Shown: positions 5,059 through 41,711 of the stretch, in pieces
Layout: each line of letters starts with the position of its first letter
Position numbering within the stretch: position 1 is the first letter of the stretch
Origin: a virus
Strand: one strand, 5' to 3'
IMG/VR virus record: IMGVR_UViG_3300037234_000192
Location: 1-41,711 of that record
Length of the DNA stretch: 41,711 nucleotides
Notes under the pieces: model-generated
Told to the model about the DNA's origin: nothing
The model's database searches: none
The model's input: only the letters and a program-made list of their open reading frames with translations
Translations under genes and position numbers: made by a program

Positions 5059-7031
5059 CTTACCTTAGCCTCCCAACTAAAATCTACGTCAGCGCCTGCA
5101 TTATTTGCTAATCTAATAAGGAAATTTGTAGCGTCTATATCGGCAGGGTCAACCCACCAATTTTCATTATCTGCAAGGTCTGTTTGTGGAGTAATCAAAA
5201 TATCTGTAGGTGCTGCACTTAGGCCGTGAGGAATATTAGGAGTAACAGCAGTACCAATACCTATAGTTGCTGTCCCCCAACTCTCTGTGATATAATCAAC
5301 GTTATTTCTTATTCGTGTTCCTGTTCCACCATCGGAAACATCTACAATCTTATTATTCATATACGAACTAAAAGAACTTAAAGCTCCAACAAGAACATCG
5401 AAAGAAGCTGACCCGAAAATAACATTGTTAGTGCATAGTGTATAATCAGCAGCGTCTTGTACGCCTACCGAAGAAGTAGTTATATGTGAGTTAACTAACT
5501 TATTACTACTGCCAGCAGAACCAAAGTCAATTCCAACTGTACAATTAGTCGCAATTATATTACTTAATGAATTTAATGAACCTGTGCAACTAACACCTGT
5601 AGCTAATGTATCTATACTCCCATTTTGAACCATAGCATATGTACAACCCATAGCTATACCTTTAGTACCAGTCGATGAACCTCTTATATTGAAGTTATTA
5701 ACAGTTGTATAATTAGCTCCTAATCCTGAACCATCTGTTACAGCTAAATTAATACCTATATCATTAGCCGGTAAATTTACAATTTCTATACCGTTAATCT
5801 GTATTGGACCTCTTACATTAAAACCAATATCTAAACAATCATCTAACACTATATTGTTAAAGAACATAGTTCTATTATTGCTAGATGTATTCTTAATTTC
5901 TATCCCATTACTTCCAGTATTTGTAACTTTCAAATTGTCAATAAACACATTGTGAATTGTTCCATCCTCAAAATGTAATCCATAAGCGAAAGTGTTTTGG
6001 ATTTTTACATTTCTTAATCTTAAGTTATTACAAGTTTGTATATTAATACCATCGCCAGCAGCTTGATTAATTCCATTGCCGTCAATCGTTATGTCTTCAA
6101 TAGCAAAATTGTTCTGATTAGCAATAGAAATAGCAGGTACATCAGAATCATCAGCTAAAATTATTGTAGTAGAACCTTCTGACGAACCCCTTAAAGTGAC
6201 ATTAGACACATTAATTGATAATCCACTTACTAAATATGTGCCAGCAGGTAAAAGAACTTCCCATCCACCAAAAAGATCAGCTGCAGTTAAAGCAAAATTA
6301 ATAGCATCTGTAGAATCGGAAACTCCAGTTGGGTCAGCTTCTGCTTGGTTAACAGCGTTTATTATACCAGATTGTGTATTTACATATGCTTTAACGCTAG
6401 ATTGAGTTGGCGGATAAAACTGCGATTCTGAACCAAGATCATTTTCGTTTAATATCCCAAGTGAGATCTGGGAAGTAATATCGCTTACGCTAGTTAAAAC
6501 AGTAACCCAATAAGGGCTTACTGATACTTCACCTGGAATTATATCGTCATCTGATACGCTAGGTAGACCGCTTCCGTCAAATACCATAGTTTTATTAGCT
6601 CTTTCGGCTAAAAGAGGCAATGTCATATCTTTATCTGATTCACCTTCAGGTAAAATCAAAGTTCTATCAAGATTATTCTTATTCTCGATAGTGATACGCA
6701 TGTTCTTATCGTATGCACTTTCTTGATTATCTGAGCTAAATCCACCACCTACAGTTAAATCAAGATTCTGAGTCGCTGCGGTATCTCTTATAACATGAAT
6801 CTCATTATCTTCTCCAGCAGCAGCTTTTGTCTCGACAGTTCCACCGCTATCGCCATTATTAACTAGCTCATAATCGGTGTCTTGTACAAATAGAGTCTGC
6901 ACTCCCGTAGCGGTTACTACTAGATATACCGTTATATCAGCATCGTTAAGTATTGGAAATGTGAAAGGAACTACCTGAGTTCCAGCCTCTCCTACTGCCG
7001 ATGTTCTATTTTCTTGTGAGGTTACTGTCAC
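5055..7031 (-). CDS. Tailspike / tail fibre with right-handed beta-helix
   Basis: This 658-residue protein is the likely receptor-binding tailspike. Residues 1-150 resemble the T7 tail-fibre attachment domain, with a TFPILNDADITVYLV-type strand pattern that docks the spike to the tail. From about 235 a pectate-lyase-like start (ADPTGVSDSTDAINFAL, then LLPAGTYLVSG) leads into repeated parallel beta-helix rungs with many Asn/Ile-rich coils up to about 575. The C-terminus (NIPHGLSAAPTDILITP ... WWVDPADIDATNFLI) matches a small beta-rich domain that often ends phage fibres and may trimerise them. Such spikes bind or degrade surface polysaccharide; no catalytic residues can be assigned by eye. It lies directly after the tail tube gene. 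Confidence 0.85.
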   Translation of the reverse strand: MTVTSQENRTSAVGEAGTQVVPFTFPILNDADITVYLVVTATGVQTLFVQDTDYELVNNGDSGGTVETKAAAGEDNEIHVIRDTAATQNLDLTVGGGFSSDNQESAYDKNMRITIENKNNLDRTLILPEGESDKDMTLPLLAERANKTMVFDGSGLPSVSDDDIIPGEVSVSPYWVTVLTSVSDITSQISLGILNENDLGSESQFYPPTQSSVKAYVNTQSGIINAVNQAEADPTGVSDSTDAINFALTAADLFGGWEVLLPAGTYLVSGLSINVSNVTLRGSSEGSTTIILADDSDVPAISIANQNNFAIEDITIDGNGINQAAGDGINIQTCNNLRLRNVKIQNTFAYGLHFEDGTIHNVFIDNLKVTNTGSNGIEIKNTSSNNRTMFFNNIVLDDCLDIGFNVRGPIQINGIEIVNLPANDIGINLAVTDGSGLGANYTTVNNFNIRGSSTGTKGIAMGCTYAMVQNGSIDTLATGVSCTGSLNSLSNIIATNCTVGIDFGSAGSSNKLVNSHITTSSVGVQDAADYTLCTNNVIFGSASFDVLVGALSSFSSYMNNKIVDVSDGGTGTRIRNNVDYITESWGTATIGIGTAVTPNIPHGLSAAPTDILITPQTDLADNENWWVDPADIDATNFLIRLANNAGADVDFSWEAKVR

Positions 7032-7046
7032 GTCAATACTCCTAAT

Positions 7047-9305
7047 CTATTTATTTTCTGTTATTGTTATTATAGCAACAATTGACCTTACCGTGCAAGG
7101 TGTTGGGTCAGAACCACTTATAATTAAATGAGTTTCAATATCGAACCCACCACGGAATGACGTTCTCTTATCTCCGGTATACATTTCAGGTGGATTATCG
7201 TAATTCTCATCTGTACGCCAATCATCAAATGGATATGTATCTCGATCATCACCATACAAAGCGTTAAAAGTATTATAGAATGAAACTATAATCTCACTTG
7301 TTATCTTCTTTTTACCCTTAGTTGTATCCTGTCCAATATCGATTCTCATAGGCTCTAACTTATATTCATAGCCTAAACCTATCATTGCCTTAGATACTGC
7401 GTTAGAAATCGTTACAGAGCCTCCTACGACTGTTTCTGAGCCTATTACAGCTCCATCACCGTAGATAGAAACCTCTTCCCGTTCCAAATGATCCAAACCA
7501 GTAAAAGTTGTAGTTGGCACACCATCATACTTAATTCCTCCATCGACAAAGTAAGCGTCTTCTTGAAGTCCAAAGTTTCTTGGTTGCATCTGCTCAATGT
7601 AAGTTAAATTAGACCCGTTAATCGTCCTGTTTACAGATAACCATACTTCGTCTTCGTCTGCTCCGGGTATAACACTGACATAATTAGCATTAATTCCCGG
7701 ATGAGACGCCCACGCTACTACGTTTTGATCTCTCTCATATGTTAACGAAAGTAACGTTCCATCTTCTAAAGTAACCCAAATTATAGAGTTAGGATTATTT
7801 TGATATGCAACTGACTTAATCTTGCCTTCGGTTATAACATCAGCAAATGCCGTCAAGTCAGGAGAAGTTAATTTCTCTGCCAAGTTATCATAAGTCATTT
7901 CCCTAAGCTTACGATTAACCGAATCTACAAACAATATCGCATTTCCTGCCCTCACAGGTTGAATAGGTGCGCTACCGTAATTAGTCTGACGGCGTACTGA
8001 AGAGTCAGTTGGTGTTATAGGCTTGTAAAGGTCACTAGCTGACATTTGCCACTCATCGCCAGAAGTACCTATAGCTAAAGAATTTAACGAAGCAAGCCAG
8101 AATATTTCATTCGTAGTTGTAGGACTTTGGATAAATGCATCTGAATCGTTAGTTCCTTCAAAGAAGTTATCGTAGTTACTTACCTCACTAAACCATACAG
8201 TTTGCAAGCCTTCCGCAGAGCCACCGTAAACAATTCTATCTGAATGGGAATCAACTGCCCTTGGGTAACCTCTAACCTCAGACCAAGCACCTTCAGCCCA
8301 TCTAATCGTGGCATCAGTAGAAGCTAATTCCTTCAAAACGATCATATCAACCAGAATAGTTGAGGTATATCCGGTTATTCGTACAATTCCTGTTTGTGTG
8401 GACTCTTCTAAGGTTATATCAGCATTAACTTTACCAGCGCCTGTTAGAGTAGCAGTTAAACGATATTTAACATTAGTACCGTTTTCAACTGCAGCTAAAG
8501 AAAAGTTATTATCATTCTCAGAATTGTAAGTTCTGTAAGTATCCCAATCTGCGTCCCCGTCCTTGCGTTCAATCTTTACAGTACCTATCCAAGTATTTCT
8601 AGTTATAAAGTTCCATGCCCCTTCAACTAAAAGTTCATCGCTTGTCGTAGTTCCTGCACCTGACTGCTCAACTGTTGTCTCAACATTTACTCTGGGTTGT
8701 GTTATAGCCCATATTGAATCGACGTGACCACTCTCAAATATCCCTGAAGAGGCTGTTAAAGTACCTGTGTCGTCTACTTCAGTTACACTTGGCGTTATCG
8801 TAATACCATCGTTATTTGAAATATCATTCCTAGTTAAGAATGGCCCACCGTCAAATTCAATAATATCTAATGAAAACGCAGTAGGTGTTGTTCGAGATAA
8901 AGTCCTTGTCGGATACAAAGGATGAACTAACCTCATTACATCGCCAATTTGCTTAACCTGTATCAACGGAACATCAGCAATCAAGTAAGGCGTTACAACT
9001 TCAACAGGAGAACCGCCCGACACTAGGAGTTCACCATTATAGTAGAATCTTATATATTGATCACCAAACTCACATTGATAAGCAATCTCAGATGAATATA
9101 TAAACCCAATCAATCGAACTTTCTCGTTAGGGTTCTTTGAACTATTTATATATAAAGTACCTGGTCTACGTTCTGCACCACCGTAAATAGTAGGAATCAT
9201 ATTATCAATAATACGACATCCCGAACTGTACTTCTCAGTATCACTTCTGCTATCTATCTTAGGTGATAAAAATCCAGCGTTAAATGATGTTATAAAGTAA
9301 TTCAA
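7047..9305 (-). CDS. Tail tubular protein B-like (T7 gp12-like nozzle)
   Basis: A 752-residue beta-rich protein. The N-terminus (FNAGFLSPKIDSRSDTEKY, then GCRIIDNMIPTIYGGAERRPG) carries the hallmark of the podovirus tail tubular B/nozzle family: the 'N..P...GG..rRPGt' signature followed by F-x-Y-S-S-E-I-A-Y-Q-C-E. In T7, gp12 forms the tip of the short tail and holds DNA until ejection. The length is close to T7 gp12 (794 residues). The start overlaps the stop of the gp11-like gene (ATGA), which supports coupled synthesis of the two tail-tube partners. Confidence 0.9.
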   Translation of the reverse strand: MNYFITSFNAGFLSPKIDSRSDTEKYSSGCRIIDNMIPTIYGGAERRPGTLYINSSKNPNEKVRLIGFIYSSEIAYQCEFGDQYIRFYYNGELLVSGGSPVEVVTPYLIADVPLIQVKQIGDVMRLVHPLYPTRTLSRTTPTAFSLDIIEFDGGPFLTRNDISNNDGITITPSVTEVDDTGTLTASSGIFESGHVDSIWAITQPRVNVETTVEQSGAGTTTSDELLVEGAWNFITRNTWIGTVKIERKDGDADWDTYRTYNSENDNNFSLAAVENGTNVKYRLTATLTGAGKVNADITLEESTQTGIVRITGYTSTILVDMIVLKELASTDATIRWAEGAWSEVRGYPRAVDSHSDRIVYGGSAEGLQTVWFSEVSNYDNFFEGTNDSDAFIQSPTTTNEIFWLASLNSLAIGTSGDEWQMSASDLYKPITPTDSSVRRQTNYGSAPIQPVRAGNAILFVDSVNRKLREMTYDNLAEKLTSPDLTAFADVITEGKIKSVAYQNNPNSIIWVTLEDGTLLSLTYERDQNVVAWASHPGINANYVSVIPGADEDEVWLSVNRTINGSNLTYIEQMQPRNFGLQEDAYFVDGGIKYDGVPTTTFTGLDHLEREEVSIYGDGAVIGSETVVGGSVTISNAVSKAMIGLGYEYKLEPMRIDIGQDTTKGKKKITSEIIVSFYNTFNALYGDDRDTYPFDDWRTDENYDNPPEMYTGDKRTSFRGGFDIETHLIISGSDPTPCTVRSIVAIITITENK

Positions 9306-35530: not shown

Positions 35531-35902
35531 TTAGACTTTAAGTAAAAGAATCGAGCCTAAGTGTTCCTTTAATTCATCTAACTCTACTCCTAAAAAATCA
35601 AAGCATCTCCACGCTATACCTTCTTCTTTTATATTGATTATGCACTTTTCACCTGAATTGCTCATCCATAGGTCACCGTCTCTGTATTTCTTCCCGTCTT
35701 TCTCGATATAGAAGACAGGTAGATAATCGGCATATTCCTTGAAGTCCATATACTCAGTATACTTTCCGTTTGTCTCTCCTATTATCTTTAAGATTGCATT
35801 ATCTTTGCTTCTTCTTAAATATTCGCCCTCTACAAACTTTAAGCTCACGGTATCAAAGATGTCAAACTTCATTAACTCTTTTTTGTAAATTCCGTTCTTC
35901 AT
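35531..35902 (-). CDS. YopX-like protein, divergent copy
   Basis: A 123-residue protein. From residue 11, MKFDIFDTVSLKFVEGEY aligns with MKFDVFNT of the two proteins at 37136-37845, and YRDGDLW matches the family's 'yRdGDi' turn. The C-terminus (LEHLGSILLLKV-like) lacks the GNKYENPELL end. The GAAAGGAATAACATG site favours the longer start at 35902 with a 10-residue extension. YopX-family proteins are common in phages; their role is unknown. Confidence 0.55.
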   Translation of the reverse strand: MKNGIYKKELMKFDIFDTVSLKFVEGEYLRRSKDNAILKIIGETNGKYTEYMDFKEYADYLPVFYIEKDGKKYRDGDLWMSNSGEKCIINIKEEGIAWRCFDFLGVELDELKEHLGSILLLKV

Positions 35903-36755: not shown

Positions 36756-36784
36756 ATAATATACCTGTAGTCCTCAAATGTCAA
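36756..36784 (-). promoter_or_regulatory. Promoter of the pseudoknot RNA
   Basis: A perfect -35 TTGACA (36784-36779) and -10 TATTAT (36761-36756) with a 17-base spacer. It is nested in the end of the terminator at 36786-36815. Confidence 0.7.
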
Positions 36785-36785
36785 T

Positions 36786-36815
36786 AAAAAAAGCCCAAGA
36801 AATTAATCTCAGGCT
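36786..36815 (-). terminator. Terminator after the Tad2-like cassette
   Basis: AGCCTGAGA (36815-36807) pairs with TCTTGGGCT (36800-36792), including two G-U pairs; the loop is 6 nt and a seven-U run follows. The stem sequence is the same as in the terminator at 37884-37917. Confidence 0.75.
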
Positions 36816-36849
36816 CTTTGCCATTGTCGCGTAACTTAAACACTATCAT

Positions 36850-36877
36850 ATTATACTAGATTCTGTTAGTTAGTCAA
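36850..36877 (-). promoter_or_regulatory. Short-transcript promoter
   Basis: -35 TTGACT (36877-36872) and -10 TATAAT (36855-36850), spacer 16, overlapping the end of the Tad2-like gene. Its RNA would be about 55 nt long before the terminator at 36786-36815. Confidence 0.5.
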
Positions 36878-37124
36878 CTATAAACCAATCATCTGCTAGA
36901 AGATCATCGTTTTGTGGATTCCAAGGTGCATAATCTCTATTTTTATCTGGGCAGTCAAGTCCGTATCTACTGAAAAGAAATGGATTTTTAAATTTAGCAA
37001 TGCCTTTTTGTAGCATAAGTACCATAGGTAAATCTTCCCAAAGTTTCCTTGCTACCTTGTTTCCGAAGCCTGATTTAAGGTATTCTAAAGCCTCTCCAAA
37101 GTTCATAAGTTTCTCTTCTGACAT
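36870..37124 (-). CDS. DUF2829/Tad2-like protein (anti-Thoeris candidate)
   Basis: An 84-residue protein. MNFGEALEYLKSG (residues 7-19) and KVARKLW, then a Pro/Trp segment (YAPWNPQ) and LLADDWFIV at the C-terminus, match the DUF2829 pattern ('MnFGeAi..lk.G.kVaRkgWng', 'dmlAeDW.iv'). This family includes Tad2, which sequesters the cyclic ADP-ribose signal of Thoeris and so blocks the defence. A GLFGN-like insertion lies between the two N-terminal motifs. It is in a cassette with two YopX-like genes, bounded by terminators. Its ligand is unknown and could also be another nucleotide signal. Confidence 0.7.
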   Translation of the reverse strand: MSEEKLMNFGEALEYLKSGFGNKVARKLWEDLPMVLMLQKGIAKFKNPFLFSRYGLDCPDKNRDYAPWNPQNDDLLADDWFIVD

Positions 37125-37135
37125 AATGTTCCTTT

Positions 37136-37486
37136 CTATTTAAGTAATTCTGGATTCTCGTATTTGTTTCCTAATAGCTTACGGCCTTCCACATAGTGTA
37201 GCTCGTGAGCGTAACGATAGTCTTGTTTAGGCTCAAAGACATAAAAACCACTTTCAAAGTCGTATCCTATAGCCATTTTATCACCATACCATTCGTATAC
37301 ATCACCCTGACGGTACTTAACGCCCTCTTCCTCTATGTAATAGACTGGAATAAAAAATTCATCTGCTGGATAACAGTCATATTCTATAGTAAATCCAAGT
37401 TCACCACTTTGTGACATGTGAAACCATCTTGGATACCCTTCTTCTTCCCATTTCTTTTCTCGTGTGTTAAATACGTCAAATTTCAT
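37136..37486 (-). CDS. YopX-like protein, copy 2
   Basis: A 116-residue protein starting at ATG 37486 (MKFDVFNT) behind GGAGACAAC. It shows YYIEEEGVKYRQGDVYE, AIGYDFESGFYVF and the end LLGNKYENPELLK, the YopX-family pattern ('yreGDiv', 'eviGNiyenPeLL'). It is a close paralogue of the next gene upstream and overlaps its stop. The biochemical role of the family is unknown. It lies directly upstream of the Tad2-like gene. Confidence 0.75.
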   Translation of the reverse strand: MKFDVFNTREKKWEEEGYPRWFHMSQSGELGFTIEYDCYPADEFFIPVYYIEEEGVKYRQGDVYEWYGDKMAIGYDFESGFYVFEPKQDYRYAHELHYVEGRKLLGNKYENPELLK

Positions 37487-37956: not shown

Positions 37957-37985
37957 TTTATATACCCTTATTAACTTAATGTCAA
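37957..37985 (-). promoter_or_regulatory. Strong promoter after the lipoprotein gene
   Basis: A perfect -35 TTGACA (37985-37980) and -10 TATAAA (37962-37957), spacer 17. The -35 overlaps the lipoprotein stop codon. The RNA reaches the terminator at 37884-37917 after about 65 nt, so it is either a short RNA or an attenuated leader. Confidence 0.65.
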
Positions 37986-38473
37986 GCACCATTTTCTTTT
38001 ATACTTTCAATGACGCCATCTTTACGCTTACTGTCTCTATGACGTCCAAATGCTAAAGCCAACGCACCAAGCGTTAAAGCAGAGTTAGCCGCCGCAGGGC
38101 CTGTTACACCGCCTGACATGACCGCTGAGACTGTAGCTCCTGTGAATTCAAGTATCTGTGCCTTAAACTCATCCTGTTTAGCTAAATCTGCATCTGCTAG
38201 AACAATCTTCTCGTTAGTGCATTTAATATCAGCGTTTAACTTAACTGTGTCAGCCTCTATCTGTGCCTTACGATCAGAGAAAGTACCCTTAAGAACTACA
38301 ATCTCACGCTCAAGTTGGGCGCCTGTAATGTCTTTGTTAGGGTCTACAATGCTCTGTGTTGTGCTACAGCCTGTGAATAACCATGTACATAGAACAGCCA
38401 CTATAACAAGTGAAATCGCTGTATTACGGTTATGGTCAATCCAATTAGTAAAACTGTGCCATAAATCTTTCAT
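37982..38473 (-). CDS. Lipoprotein-like protein (outer-spanin candidate)
   Basis: A 163-residue protein. A hydrophobic helix (residues 19-35) ends in LFTGC, a lipobox with Cys36, so it may be lipidated. A helical region (residues 45-110, coiled-coil-like, with KAQIEADTVKL) follows. A Gly/Ala-rich stretch (110-140, MSGGVTGPAAANSALTLGALALAFG) comes next, then a basic end. A lipoprotein with a coiled coil fits a spanin-type lysis role, but the Gly/Ala part is unusual. It lies downstream of two other small membrane proteins. Confidence 0.5.
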   Translation of the reverse strand: MKDLWHSFTNWIDHNRNTAISLVIVAVLCTWLFTGCSTTQSIVDPNKDITGAQLEREIVVLKGTFSDRKAQIEADTVKLNADIKCTNEKIVLADADLAKQDEFKAQILEFTGATVSAVMSGGVTGPAAANSALTLGALALAFGRHRDSKRKDGVIESIKENGA

Positions 38474-38944: not shown

Positions 38945-41711
38945 TATTCTATCCTATTCCAATCAGTAAATAATTTATCTGACCGCCTAGATAACGCCCT
39001 GTCTCTAGCTACCTCTTTCCTCAAAGTATCAGGTTCTCCGTCTGTACGGTTCATATTTTCTTCTAAGTATTTATTCATATCTTTAAGTGATGCGCCCATA
39101 GCCTTAGAGAAATCAACAATAAACTTTCTCTCTAATGGGTTCTTATCTATAGACTTACTAGATAACTTCTTAGCTAAATTACCAAGGTAGTCAGTCATGC
39201 CTGGTGTCTTCTTGCTCCATTTATCACTTGCAGCGGTAATAATTGCTTCGTTATACGTTCTAGTCCAGTCTTTCTGTGCTTGGGTAATCTCACCAACGTC
39301 AGGGACAGTCTTAAGGAACTCTTCCATGTCAGCATCTTTTACTGGGCCTAATGGAGACTTTCTATCACCGGAGCCTTTAATGCCTTTAATAGCTTTGGTT
39401 ATATCGTCAACTGAATTTATTTCTATATCTTCTAATATTCTACCTAAATGTTTAGCAGCATCGTCTATATCGCCTACAATTATCTGTCTAGCGGCTAATT
39501 CATAAGATAAAGTCTTTGCATTACGTTCAAACTCTGGTCTACCCATGAGGAACTCTTTAAGAGCCTTACCAACCTTTTTACCAGTTGTGGGTAATCTCTT
39601 ATCATCTTGCCAATCAAAAGCCTTCGATCTTGCCGGCCAATATTCAGCAGATAAGCTTCCTTCGTTATCTATTTGATCTATCTTAGTTAGAATTGACCTT
39701 ACCTGACGTATAGCAGAAGCTTCTCTTTCAGCTAGCTGTCCAAAGGCATCAGCGGCGTTAGATGGATTATCATAAACATCTGTAGTAAACCTACTAAAGT
39801 TCTTTAAGCTGTTTCCTGATACGCCTACAGCCCAATTAGTAAGCCCATAAGAGAAATCAGCAAACATACCTACTCCACCACCGTCAAAGAAGTCATTACC
39901 AAGTGCAAGAGCCAATTCTGATGGACTTTCACCTTCTACAGCCTTTTTAGTTATGGATTCGTCTCTATCGAACAGTAAGTCTCGTATCAGATTATAAAGC
40001 TCACCAGCTATAGCAGTTCCAGCCATCCATCTAACTAGCCTTGTAGGGTCACCTGTCTTTAGGGTATATTTCATTACGTCATTGTAAATATGTGCAGTCT
40101 GCTCTACAGGCCATGTTTTAAACTGTGCGAACACTCTCATTAATGGGGATTTATCCCACCATGAACGTTTAGTTGAAAGTATTACAGGGAATGTCTTATC
40201 TCTTACTGCTCTGTGAAGTATTCTTTCAAGCTGGTCTCCGGATACCTGACCACCATTATTAACCCATTCGTCAACTAATGACTCAGTACTTATTGTGTCA
40301 AAGTCTAAAGTTTCCTTTTCAAGTCTATATCTTAACTGCTTTTCAGAGTTACCCATAATAGCGTCTACTCTATCAAGGAACTTCTTAACTCTTGGATTCT
40401 GGTTATGTTTAGCAACTAATTTAGCTAAGTCTTTCTCCAATTGAAGTTTACGGACTAAAGCTATAAAGACCTGATTACCACGTTCTGATGATGAGAAAGG
40501 TTTACCAATAGCTACAGCAGTTCTTTGTCCTGCCTCTACGTCTGCACTAATAGCACCATGGCCGGAAATAGCACCGGCACGAATCATTTCATTTTCTATA
40601 CGTTGAGATTCTTTAATCCACTTATTAAGGAATGGAGGATACAAGGCAGTAGCTTTAACATTAGTTGATATATCACCAATAGTTAAGCCTTTAACACCTC
40701 TATCAAGCATATTCCTTACGATAGTCAATGGACTTAAAGCGACTTTAGAAACAAACTGTGCGCCTCTTATTGTCTTACTTAACTTAGATATATCAGCAGG
40801 GGCGCGTTCAGCACCAAAGCTAAACTTTATAAAGTCCTCTACTTCTTTACCTGAATCGCTACCTTGTTCTGCGTTTATATTTTCGATCAACTCGTTGGCT
40901 TTCGGGAAGGATTTGCCTTTCTGGTCATAACCCCATTGTCTTATAGCCTCAAGAGTTAGCCAGTTACCTTCAACTAAGTTAGGAAGTACTTTTTGAATAT
41001 CCCATTCAATGTATTCAGGTTTTAGTTCTACCCTTTCAGATTCTAAATATCTATTAATCCCTCTTAATTGAGTATCGCTGAATTGGCTCATCTTAGTAAT
41101 AGCTTCTTCAATGGTCTCTGCTTGGCCTGAATCAACTATATCTTTAGCCGCTTCAAAAACTCTCTTAGAATTAGCACCTTCTGCTCTAACTTCGGCAATA
41201 AATCTCTGTCCTTTTGTATTAAGAACCTGTGGATAAGCCTTACCACTTCCTGCAATACCAATCTTTTGGCCTTTAACAGTTCTCTGGACACCTAATTCTT
41301 GTGCTGAAGTCAATGACCTATCTAAAATAGATCGTATCTGCTTAACTTTAGGCCGTAACCAACCTGGTAAAGTATCTAAACTAACCCTCTTATTAATAGC
41401 TTGTGCTATAAGAACTCTATTTTTATGATTAACGCCATGCAAAACTACATTAGTATCGGCAATGTCAACGTTAGCGTTCTTTTGTGATCTGAATGCAATC
41501 TCTTTTAAATCACCTGAAACCTTTTTACCTGACTCTCCCATATTAGAGAATCGTGTAGTAGCTCTCTGGACTAACTTACCACTTAAAGATTTAACAGACT
41601 TAGCTACGTCTTTTACAGTTTTAACAGTTACTTCAGCAAACGTTCCGATTTCAGCAGCAGCGTCAGCTATAACAGCAGCCTGTCCAGCAGTCTTTGGTAA
41701 TGGTCTTTCTT
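38944..41711 (-). CDS. Giant polyvalent/internal virion (ejection) protein, C-terminal part
   Basis: This is the continuation of the gene at 1-2665 across the assembly junction; the frame is open to the right edge. It gives at least 922 residues here. A region around AQFVSKVALSPLTIVRNMLDR and a later W-W-D-K-S-P-L-M-R-V-F-A-Q-F-K-T-W-P-V-E-Q-T resembles the large polyvalent-protein-associated domains (LPD38-like) of phage ejection proteins. The C-terminal 150 residues are helical and basic. Translation of the joined gene would yield about 1,671 residues, the largest protein of the phage. Roughly 120 kDa or more of this probably rides inside the head. Confidence 0.75.
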   Translation of the reverse strand, partial: ERPLPKTAGQAAVIADAAAEIGTFAEVTVKTVKDVAKSVKSLSGKLVQRATTRFSNMGESGKKVSGDLKEIAFRSQKNANVDIADTNVVLHGVNHKNRVLIAQAINKRVSLDTLPGWLRPKVKQIRSILDRSLTSAQELGVQRTVKGQKIGIAGSGKAYPQVLNTKGQRFIAEVRAEGANSKRVFEAAKDIVDSGQAETIEEAITKMSQFSDTQLRGINRYLESERVELKPEYIEWDIQKVLPNLVEGNWLTLEAIRQWGYDQKGKSFPKANELIENINAEQGSDSGKEVEDFIKFSFGAERAPADISKLSKTIRGAQFVSKVALSPLTIVRNMLDRGVKGLTIGDISTNVKATALYPPFLNKWIKESQRIENEMIRAGAISGHGAISADVEAGQRTAVAIGKPFSSSERGNQVFIALVRKLQLEKDLAKLVAKHNQNPRVKKFLDRVDAIMGNSEKQLRYRLEKETLDFDTISTESLVDEWVNNGGQVSGDQLERILHRAVRDKTFPVILSTKRSWWDKSPLMRVFAQFKTWPVEQTAHIYNDVMKYTLKTGDPTRLVRWMAGTAIAGELYNLIRDLLFDRDESITKKAVEGESPSELALALGNDFFDGGGVGMFADFSYGLTNWAVGVSGNSLKNFSRFTTDVYDNPSNAADAFGQLAEREASAIRQVRSILTKIDQIDNEGSLSAEYWPARSKAFDWQDDKRLPTTGKKVGKALKEFLMGRPEFERNAKTLSYELAARQIIVGDIDDAAKHLGRILEDIEINSVDDITKAIKGIKGSGDRKSPLGPVKDADMEEFLKTVPDVGEITQAQKDWTRTYNEAIITAASDKWSKKTPGMTDYLGNLAKKLSSKSIDKNPLERKFIVDFSKAMGASLKDMNKYLEENMNRTDGEPDTLRKEVARDRALSRRSDKLFTDWNRIE
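41295..41711. repeat. Right copy of imperfect terminal overlap
   Basis: This is the counterpart of 1-417. Of the 11 differences, nine fall at third codon positions and are silent. Two fall at first positions and give Ala/Ser (position 37) and Ile/Val (position 175). That pattern is expected of two natural variants under purifying selection rather than of sequencing error. The last 127 bases (41585-41711) are identical to 291-417. Confidence 0.95.

Follow-up and report, generated by a model that had tools for sequence, protein, structure and literature searches.

A divergent Tad2-like domain (PF11195) protein with a replaced pocket loop encoded by a podovirus

Proteins matching the Tad2-like domain family PF11195 (DUF2829) tend to be labelled anti-Thoeris. 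Tad2 proper is a phage sponge, a homotetramer with two pockets between protomers, which binds gcADPR or His-ADPR and protects the phage from Thoeris. Structures are available for SPO1 Tad2 (gp34.65; 8sme, 8smf, 8smg, 8wje), ModTad2 from a Myroides odoratus prophage (9eib with His-ADPR, 8v3e apo), HgmTad2/AcrIIA7 (8kbi-8kbk) and SptTad2 (8wjd). According to a review, both protomers contribute their beta1-beta2 loop to the gcADPR pocket of Tad2, which further comprises the beta3-beta4 and beta4-alpha3 loops, strand beta4 and helix alpha3; CDNs are bound by Tad2 through a long insertion that separates beta2 from beta5 (PMC12043709).

Here we describe a Tad2-like protein of 84 amino acids from the IMG/VR record IMGVR_UViG_3300037234_000192. 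The whole stretch of DNA analysed, 41,711 nucleotides, is called the window, and the features discussed are collected in Table 1. The tad2-like ORF is intact and is accompanied by a ribosome-binding-site-like sequence and a terminator-like hairpin. The region 36770-36850 on the minus strand folds with -22.6 kcal/mol (z -4.4), and none of 200 shuffled sequences folded as well; a pattern scan for terminators listed none at the position of the hairpin. Promoter-like sites such as the one in Table 1 are as many in the region as expected by chance.

Table 1. Features of the tad2-like locus in the window
Feature	Position	Strand	Remarks
Promoter-like TTGACA-17-TATTAT	36756..36784	-	11/12 consensus; leads into the next (ERF/SSB) gene block
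Hairpin with T run, resembling a rho-independent terminator	36782..36819	-	about 50 nt past the tad2-like stop
Tad2-like (PF11195) ORF, LWEDLP replacing GWNGKG	36870..37124	-	84 aa; ATG 37124, stop 36870
Codons 29-34 (WEDLPM), within the altered beta1-beta2 loop	37023..37040	-	from alignments; counted from ATG 37124
Ribosome-binding-site-like AGAAAGGA	37130..37137	-	5 nt 5' of the tad2-like ATG; from sequence
YopX-like protein, 117 aa	37136..37489	-	directly upstream of the tad2-like gene; PF09643 16.8 bits, under cut-off
YopX-family protein, 120 aa	37483..37845	-	PF09643 24.5 bits against a cut-off of 22.4; 7-nt overlap with the next ORF

The first-pass annotation had proposed a DUF2829/Tad2-like gene at this place, and both the profile and the predicted fold agree with it. 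Residues 7-83 match PF11195 over its full length (profile positions 1-73 of 73) with an E-value of 4.4e-15 and 56.4 bits, where the curated cut-off is 25 bits; the match is thus far past chance, and the protein can be placed securely in the Tad2-like domain family. When the PDB was searched by sequence, ModTad2 (9eib, E 2.9e-6) and SPO1 Tad2 (8sme, E 1.6e-4) were found. Among the PHROG families the protein matches two that have no assigned function, phrog_1048 and phrog_872, and more weakly phrog_643, which is labelled transcriptional regulator. No match was obtained against NCBIfam or PADLOC.

A monomer was modelled with AlphaFold2 from an alignment of 50 rows (window, IMG/VR and genome loci), giving a pLDDT of 86.5 and a pTM of 0.78. 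Tad2 or AcrIIA7 chains fill the best 22 rows of a Foldseek search of this model against the PDB. The ten best VIA-align entries are likewise all Tad2 proteins (Z 9.3-10.9), including complexes with gcADPR, His-ADPR and cGG; the scores are 10.9 for SPO1 Tad2, 10.6 for SptTad2, 10.3 for the His-ADPR complex of ModTad2 and 10.1 for HgmTad2/AcrIIA7. The Foldseek and VIA-align results therefore support the Tad2 fold well, at the level of the monomer. The entry following the Tad2 proteins is a phage 812 neck protein (8qkh, Z 7.2), and all later rows have a Z of at most 4.1. This virion protein shows a Tad2-like domain, with 20% identity over 77 residues, a hint that the structural neck protein and the sponge fold may be of common origin.

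The protein departs from its homologues in loops that, going by the review-level pocket description (PMC12043709), serve Tad2 to hold its ligand. The beta1-beta2 segment G-W-N-G-K-G-M is conserved at 95, 100, 95, 99, 88, 75 and 76%, respectively, in 126 non-redundant homologues, a set which overstates WNG conservation since it was collected partly with a GWNG pattern. Here the segment reads L-W-E-D-L-P-M, so that the hallmark GWNGKG has become LWEDLP, with changes at G28, N30, G31 and K32. In the beta4-alpha3 loop the Ser at position 71, conserved in 91% of the same 126 homologues, is replaced by Q, and D stands at position 73, where most homologues have T or S. When patterns were instead taken from a WNG-less relative, 35 of the 40 non-redundant sequences found still carried WNG. 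The core invariants of the family are all retained (F9, G10, A12, R26, W29, W68, D74, L76, D79 and W80), and within the motif W.(A/P)S..D.LA.DW the residues W68, P70, D74, L76, A77, D79 and W80 are kept, S71 being the one replaced. This looks like a protein that has retained its fold and changed its binding loop, rather than one in decay. With its core residues intact, the gene is unlikely to be decaying.

Since the pocket loop of Tad2 proper was looked for and LWEDLP was found in its place, we keep the protein outside Tad2 proper, although it may work like Tad2. That it sequesters the Thoeris signal, as had been annotated, does not follow from homology alone, because the loop lining the pocket is replaced and the conserved Ser is Q. 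Altered ligand preference had also been suggested, from an insertion in the N-terminal helix region and a reduced middle part. The insertion is present but consists only of F20-G21, two residues located after helix 1 and before beta1, a site at which at most 3 of the 126 homologues have residues. The middle is indeed reduced relative to SPO1 Tad2, ModTad2 and HgmTad2, but this is common in the family (phages PaBG and IME346, loci L066 and L056) and recurs in many PF11195 proteins of IMG/VR. A change of ligand preference is still plausible, for a different reason, namely the replacement of the pocket loop together with the Ser to Q change.

The explanation we favour, with about even confidence, is that the protein is a Tad2-type sponge with a changed pocket, a divergent PF11195 member encoded in an accessory slot of a podovirus. 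From this slot it would be made during infection and would assemble as a small oligomer in the manner of Tad2. The oligomer would bind and hold a nucleotide-type immune signal, and with the signal held the host effector would stay off. With LWEDLP in place of GWNGKG in the beta1-beta2 loop and Q in place of Ser, the ligand is probably bound outside the standard Tad2 way, and a different signal may be involved. The family, the loop replacement, the gene order and the absence of the gene from a sister phage are observed and the monomer fold is predicted, whereas we infer the oligomer, the ligand binding, the anti-defence activity and the changed specificity.

A rather unlikely alternative is that the Tad2 fold has another job in this phage, as a virion or neck component, as a protein-protein adaptor or as a relic without ligand binding. 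It would agree with the phage 812 neck protein coming directly behind the Tad2 proteins in the fold ranking, although its Z of 7.2 lies in the middling range on VIA-align's own scale. It would also agree with the weak match to phrog_643 and its regulator label, and with the existence of WNG-less versions as separate small lineages. Furthermore, many relatives are encoded amid head and packaging genes; the tad2-like gene of the window, however, occupies a variable interval that is not part of the structural block, and the retained core residues make simple decay unlikely.

Many PF11195 genes of other phages are found inside structural or replication modules, beside terminase, portal or DNA polymerase III subunits. 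Three canonical DUF2829 genes among structural or DNA polymerase III subunit genes (L005 1501-1746, L004 1516-1788 and L002 1501-1734) are flanked by terminase and portal-like genes, flanked by minor head and scaffold genes, or neighbours of DNA polymerase III subunits. Because of such settings DUF2829 genes are not identified as counter-defence by their neighbourhood, and with many members lying within structural or replication modules PF11195 is not proven to be counter-defence throughout.

An ordinary Tad2, sequestering the Thoeris signal (gcADPR, or His-ADPR as in ModTad2) through the retained aromatic and acidic residues, is an unlikely reading. In its favour, ModTad2, which was solved with His-ADPR, is the best PDB match by sequence and shares with our protein the predicted fold (Z 10.2-10.3) and the motifs FG.AL...K...R..W and W.P...D.LA.DW; W29, W68, D74, D79 and W80 are all retained. 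Nevertheless, ModTad2 has the canonical loop GWNGKGM and a longer middle, where our protein has LWEDLPM and a short one, and all of G28, N30 and G31 (95-99%), K32 (88%) and S71 (91%) are altered, in a pocket to which the beta1-beta2 loop contributes from both protomers (PMC12043709). SPO1 Tad2 compares in the same way: 72 residues of 8sme are aligned at an rmsd of 2.3 (Z 10.9), but its loop is the canonical GWNGKNM and it has PSQTD where our protein has PQNDD.

The fold is also alike in HgmTad2/AcrIIA7 and SptTad2 (Z 9.3-10.6), and the alignments to 8kbi and 8wjd cover 72-74 of their 101-104 residues. The long insertion through which proteins of this type bind CDNs is absent from our protein, whose model has about 9 residues between strand 34-39 and strand 49-54. 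This argues against the CDN-insertion binding mode. The DUF2829 proteins of PaBG and Klebsiella phage IME346 resemble ours in the short middle and in a lengthened beta3-beta4 part (PYIFLSYPA.. and PFLSLIYPV..), but they carry a canonical GWNG(N/K)GM loop and are encoded beside replication or packaging genes.

No close relatives were found in IMG/VR with peptide patterns taken from the protein itself. The nearest relatives, at 48% identity, are WNG-less proteins of 66 amino acids from six IMG/VR loci (L065, L191-L195). They share with our protein the end PQxDDLLAxDWxIVD and the lack of a WNG loop, and differ in being shorter, in a RREWDSF loop, in lacking the YGLDCPDKNR stretch and in their gene neighbourhood. 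Our protein forms a long branch in the tree, with no close relative. It groups with these six loci with support 99/91, a grouping which joins long branches and may be false. A second WNG-less lineage with an MRLPxW loop (L126, L214, L248, L263) has a separate place in the tree. WNG may have been lost more than once, although the tree does not force this. It is an unlikely but notable reading that our protein and its WNG-less relatives make up a subfamily of sponges derived from Tad2, whose rebuilt pocket captures an immune signal that Tad2 proteins are not known to bind. In one 167-aa protein from position 3001 of L257, a canonical WNG Tad2-like unit is preceded by a fused WNG-less one (MNFGEALECLKNGLSVRRSHWAGYW...ASEDW), and L100 and L153 carry possible remnants of such a front unit.

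The ends of the window match: its first and last 20-mers recur at the opposite end, which fits a direct repeat of about 417 bp (1-417 and 41295-41711). The window therefore probably represents the entire genome of the phage, about 41.3 kb long. Its genes include a T7-like head-tail connector, a major head protein, a terminase, ERF, SSB and NinG, and the genome is that of a podovirus. The capsid and tail proteins are closest (31-42%) to those of Pelagibacter, Enterobacter and other podoviruses and of an archaeal-virus contig. No near relative of the terminase was found in about 400 genomes from each of two phyla, where matches were partial and reached at most 36 bits; against phage isolates, identity was below 30% among the matches listed. 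Rfam and tRNA scans of the window gave nothing. Positions 37982-38473 on the minus strand, flanked by the YopX genes and the structural block, encode a 163-aa protein that has a signal/lipobox-like LFTGC and a very weak likeness to Rz-type spanins (E 0.06), which hints at a Gram-negative host.

A sister phage, IMGVR_UViG_3300037234_000176 (L014), has a counterpart of the window's 865-aa protein with 81% identity. The two genomes share, in the same order, a 75-aa gene, YopX, a 63-aa gene and ERF. Although YopX genes are present in the sister phage, no PF11195 match was found in all 46 kb of it. Between YopX and the 63-aa gene it carries instead an HNH protein and a C5-cytosine DNA methyltransferase (5562-7144). 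An HNH protein with a C5-cytosine methyltransferase is cargo often tied to defence and counter-defence. The best PADLOC match of the HNH nuclease is PtuB. From the comparison of the window with this one sister phage, genes appear to turn over in the interval, with cargo of the defence or counter-defence type, and this gene context backs a counter-defence role of the tad2-like gene only indirectly, by association.

The tad2-like gene is the last in a minus-strand run YopX-YopX-Tad2. Its ATG follows the stop of the 117-aa YopX-like gene after 11 nt, and these two genes are probably in the same operon. Two YopX-like genes had been annotated here; the 120-aa protein passes the PF09643 cut-off, whereas the 117-aa protein fails it and yet is 43% identical to the former. 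A third YopX-like paralogue on the minus strand (35531-35902), missed by Pfam and lying beyond a 560-bp intergenic region, is 34-38% identical to these two, with E-values of about 1e-5 to 1e-6. An anti-defence role had been proposed for the YopX genes by association, and this association is weak. A recurrent YopX-Tad2 cassette is unsupported among 50 Tad2-bearing virus records, and a link between Tad2 and YopX may at most hold in the phage of the window. Searching the literature for YopX as an anti-defence factor yielded no usable result. That the three genes form a discrete anti-defence cassette in which both YopX-like proteins also counter defence, which is compatible with either reading of the Tad2-like protein, is very unlikely: the 11-nt and overlapping spacing on one strand suggests a single transcript with the tad2-like gene and a terminator hairpin follows that gene, but YopX passes the cut-off in only 6 of the 50 Tad2-bearing records and is adjacent in none, the sister phage has YopX without Tad2, and the third paralogue lies outside the group, past the intergenic gap.

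For the family, this protein shows that the pocket loop can be replaced even where the profile is matched over its full length and the Tad2 fold is predicted with confidence, and the name Tad2 therefore does not fix the ligand. If such variants do bind other signals, they would point to immune messengers not yet described.
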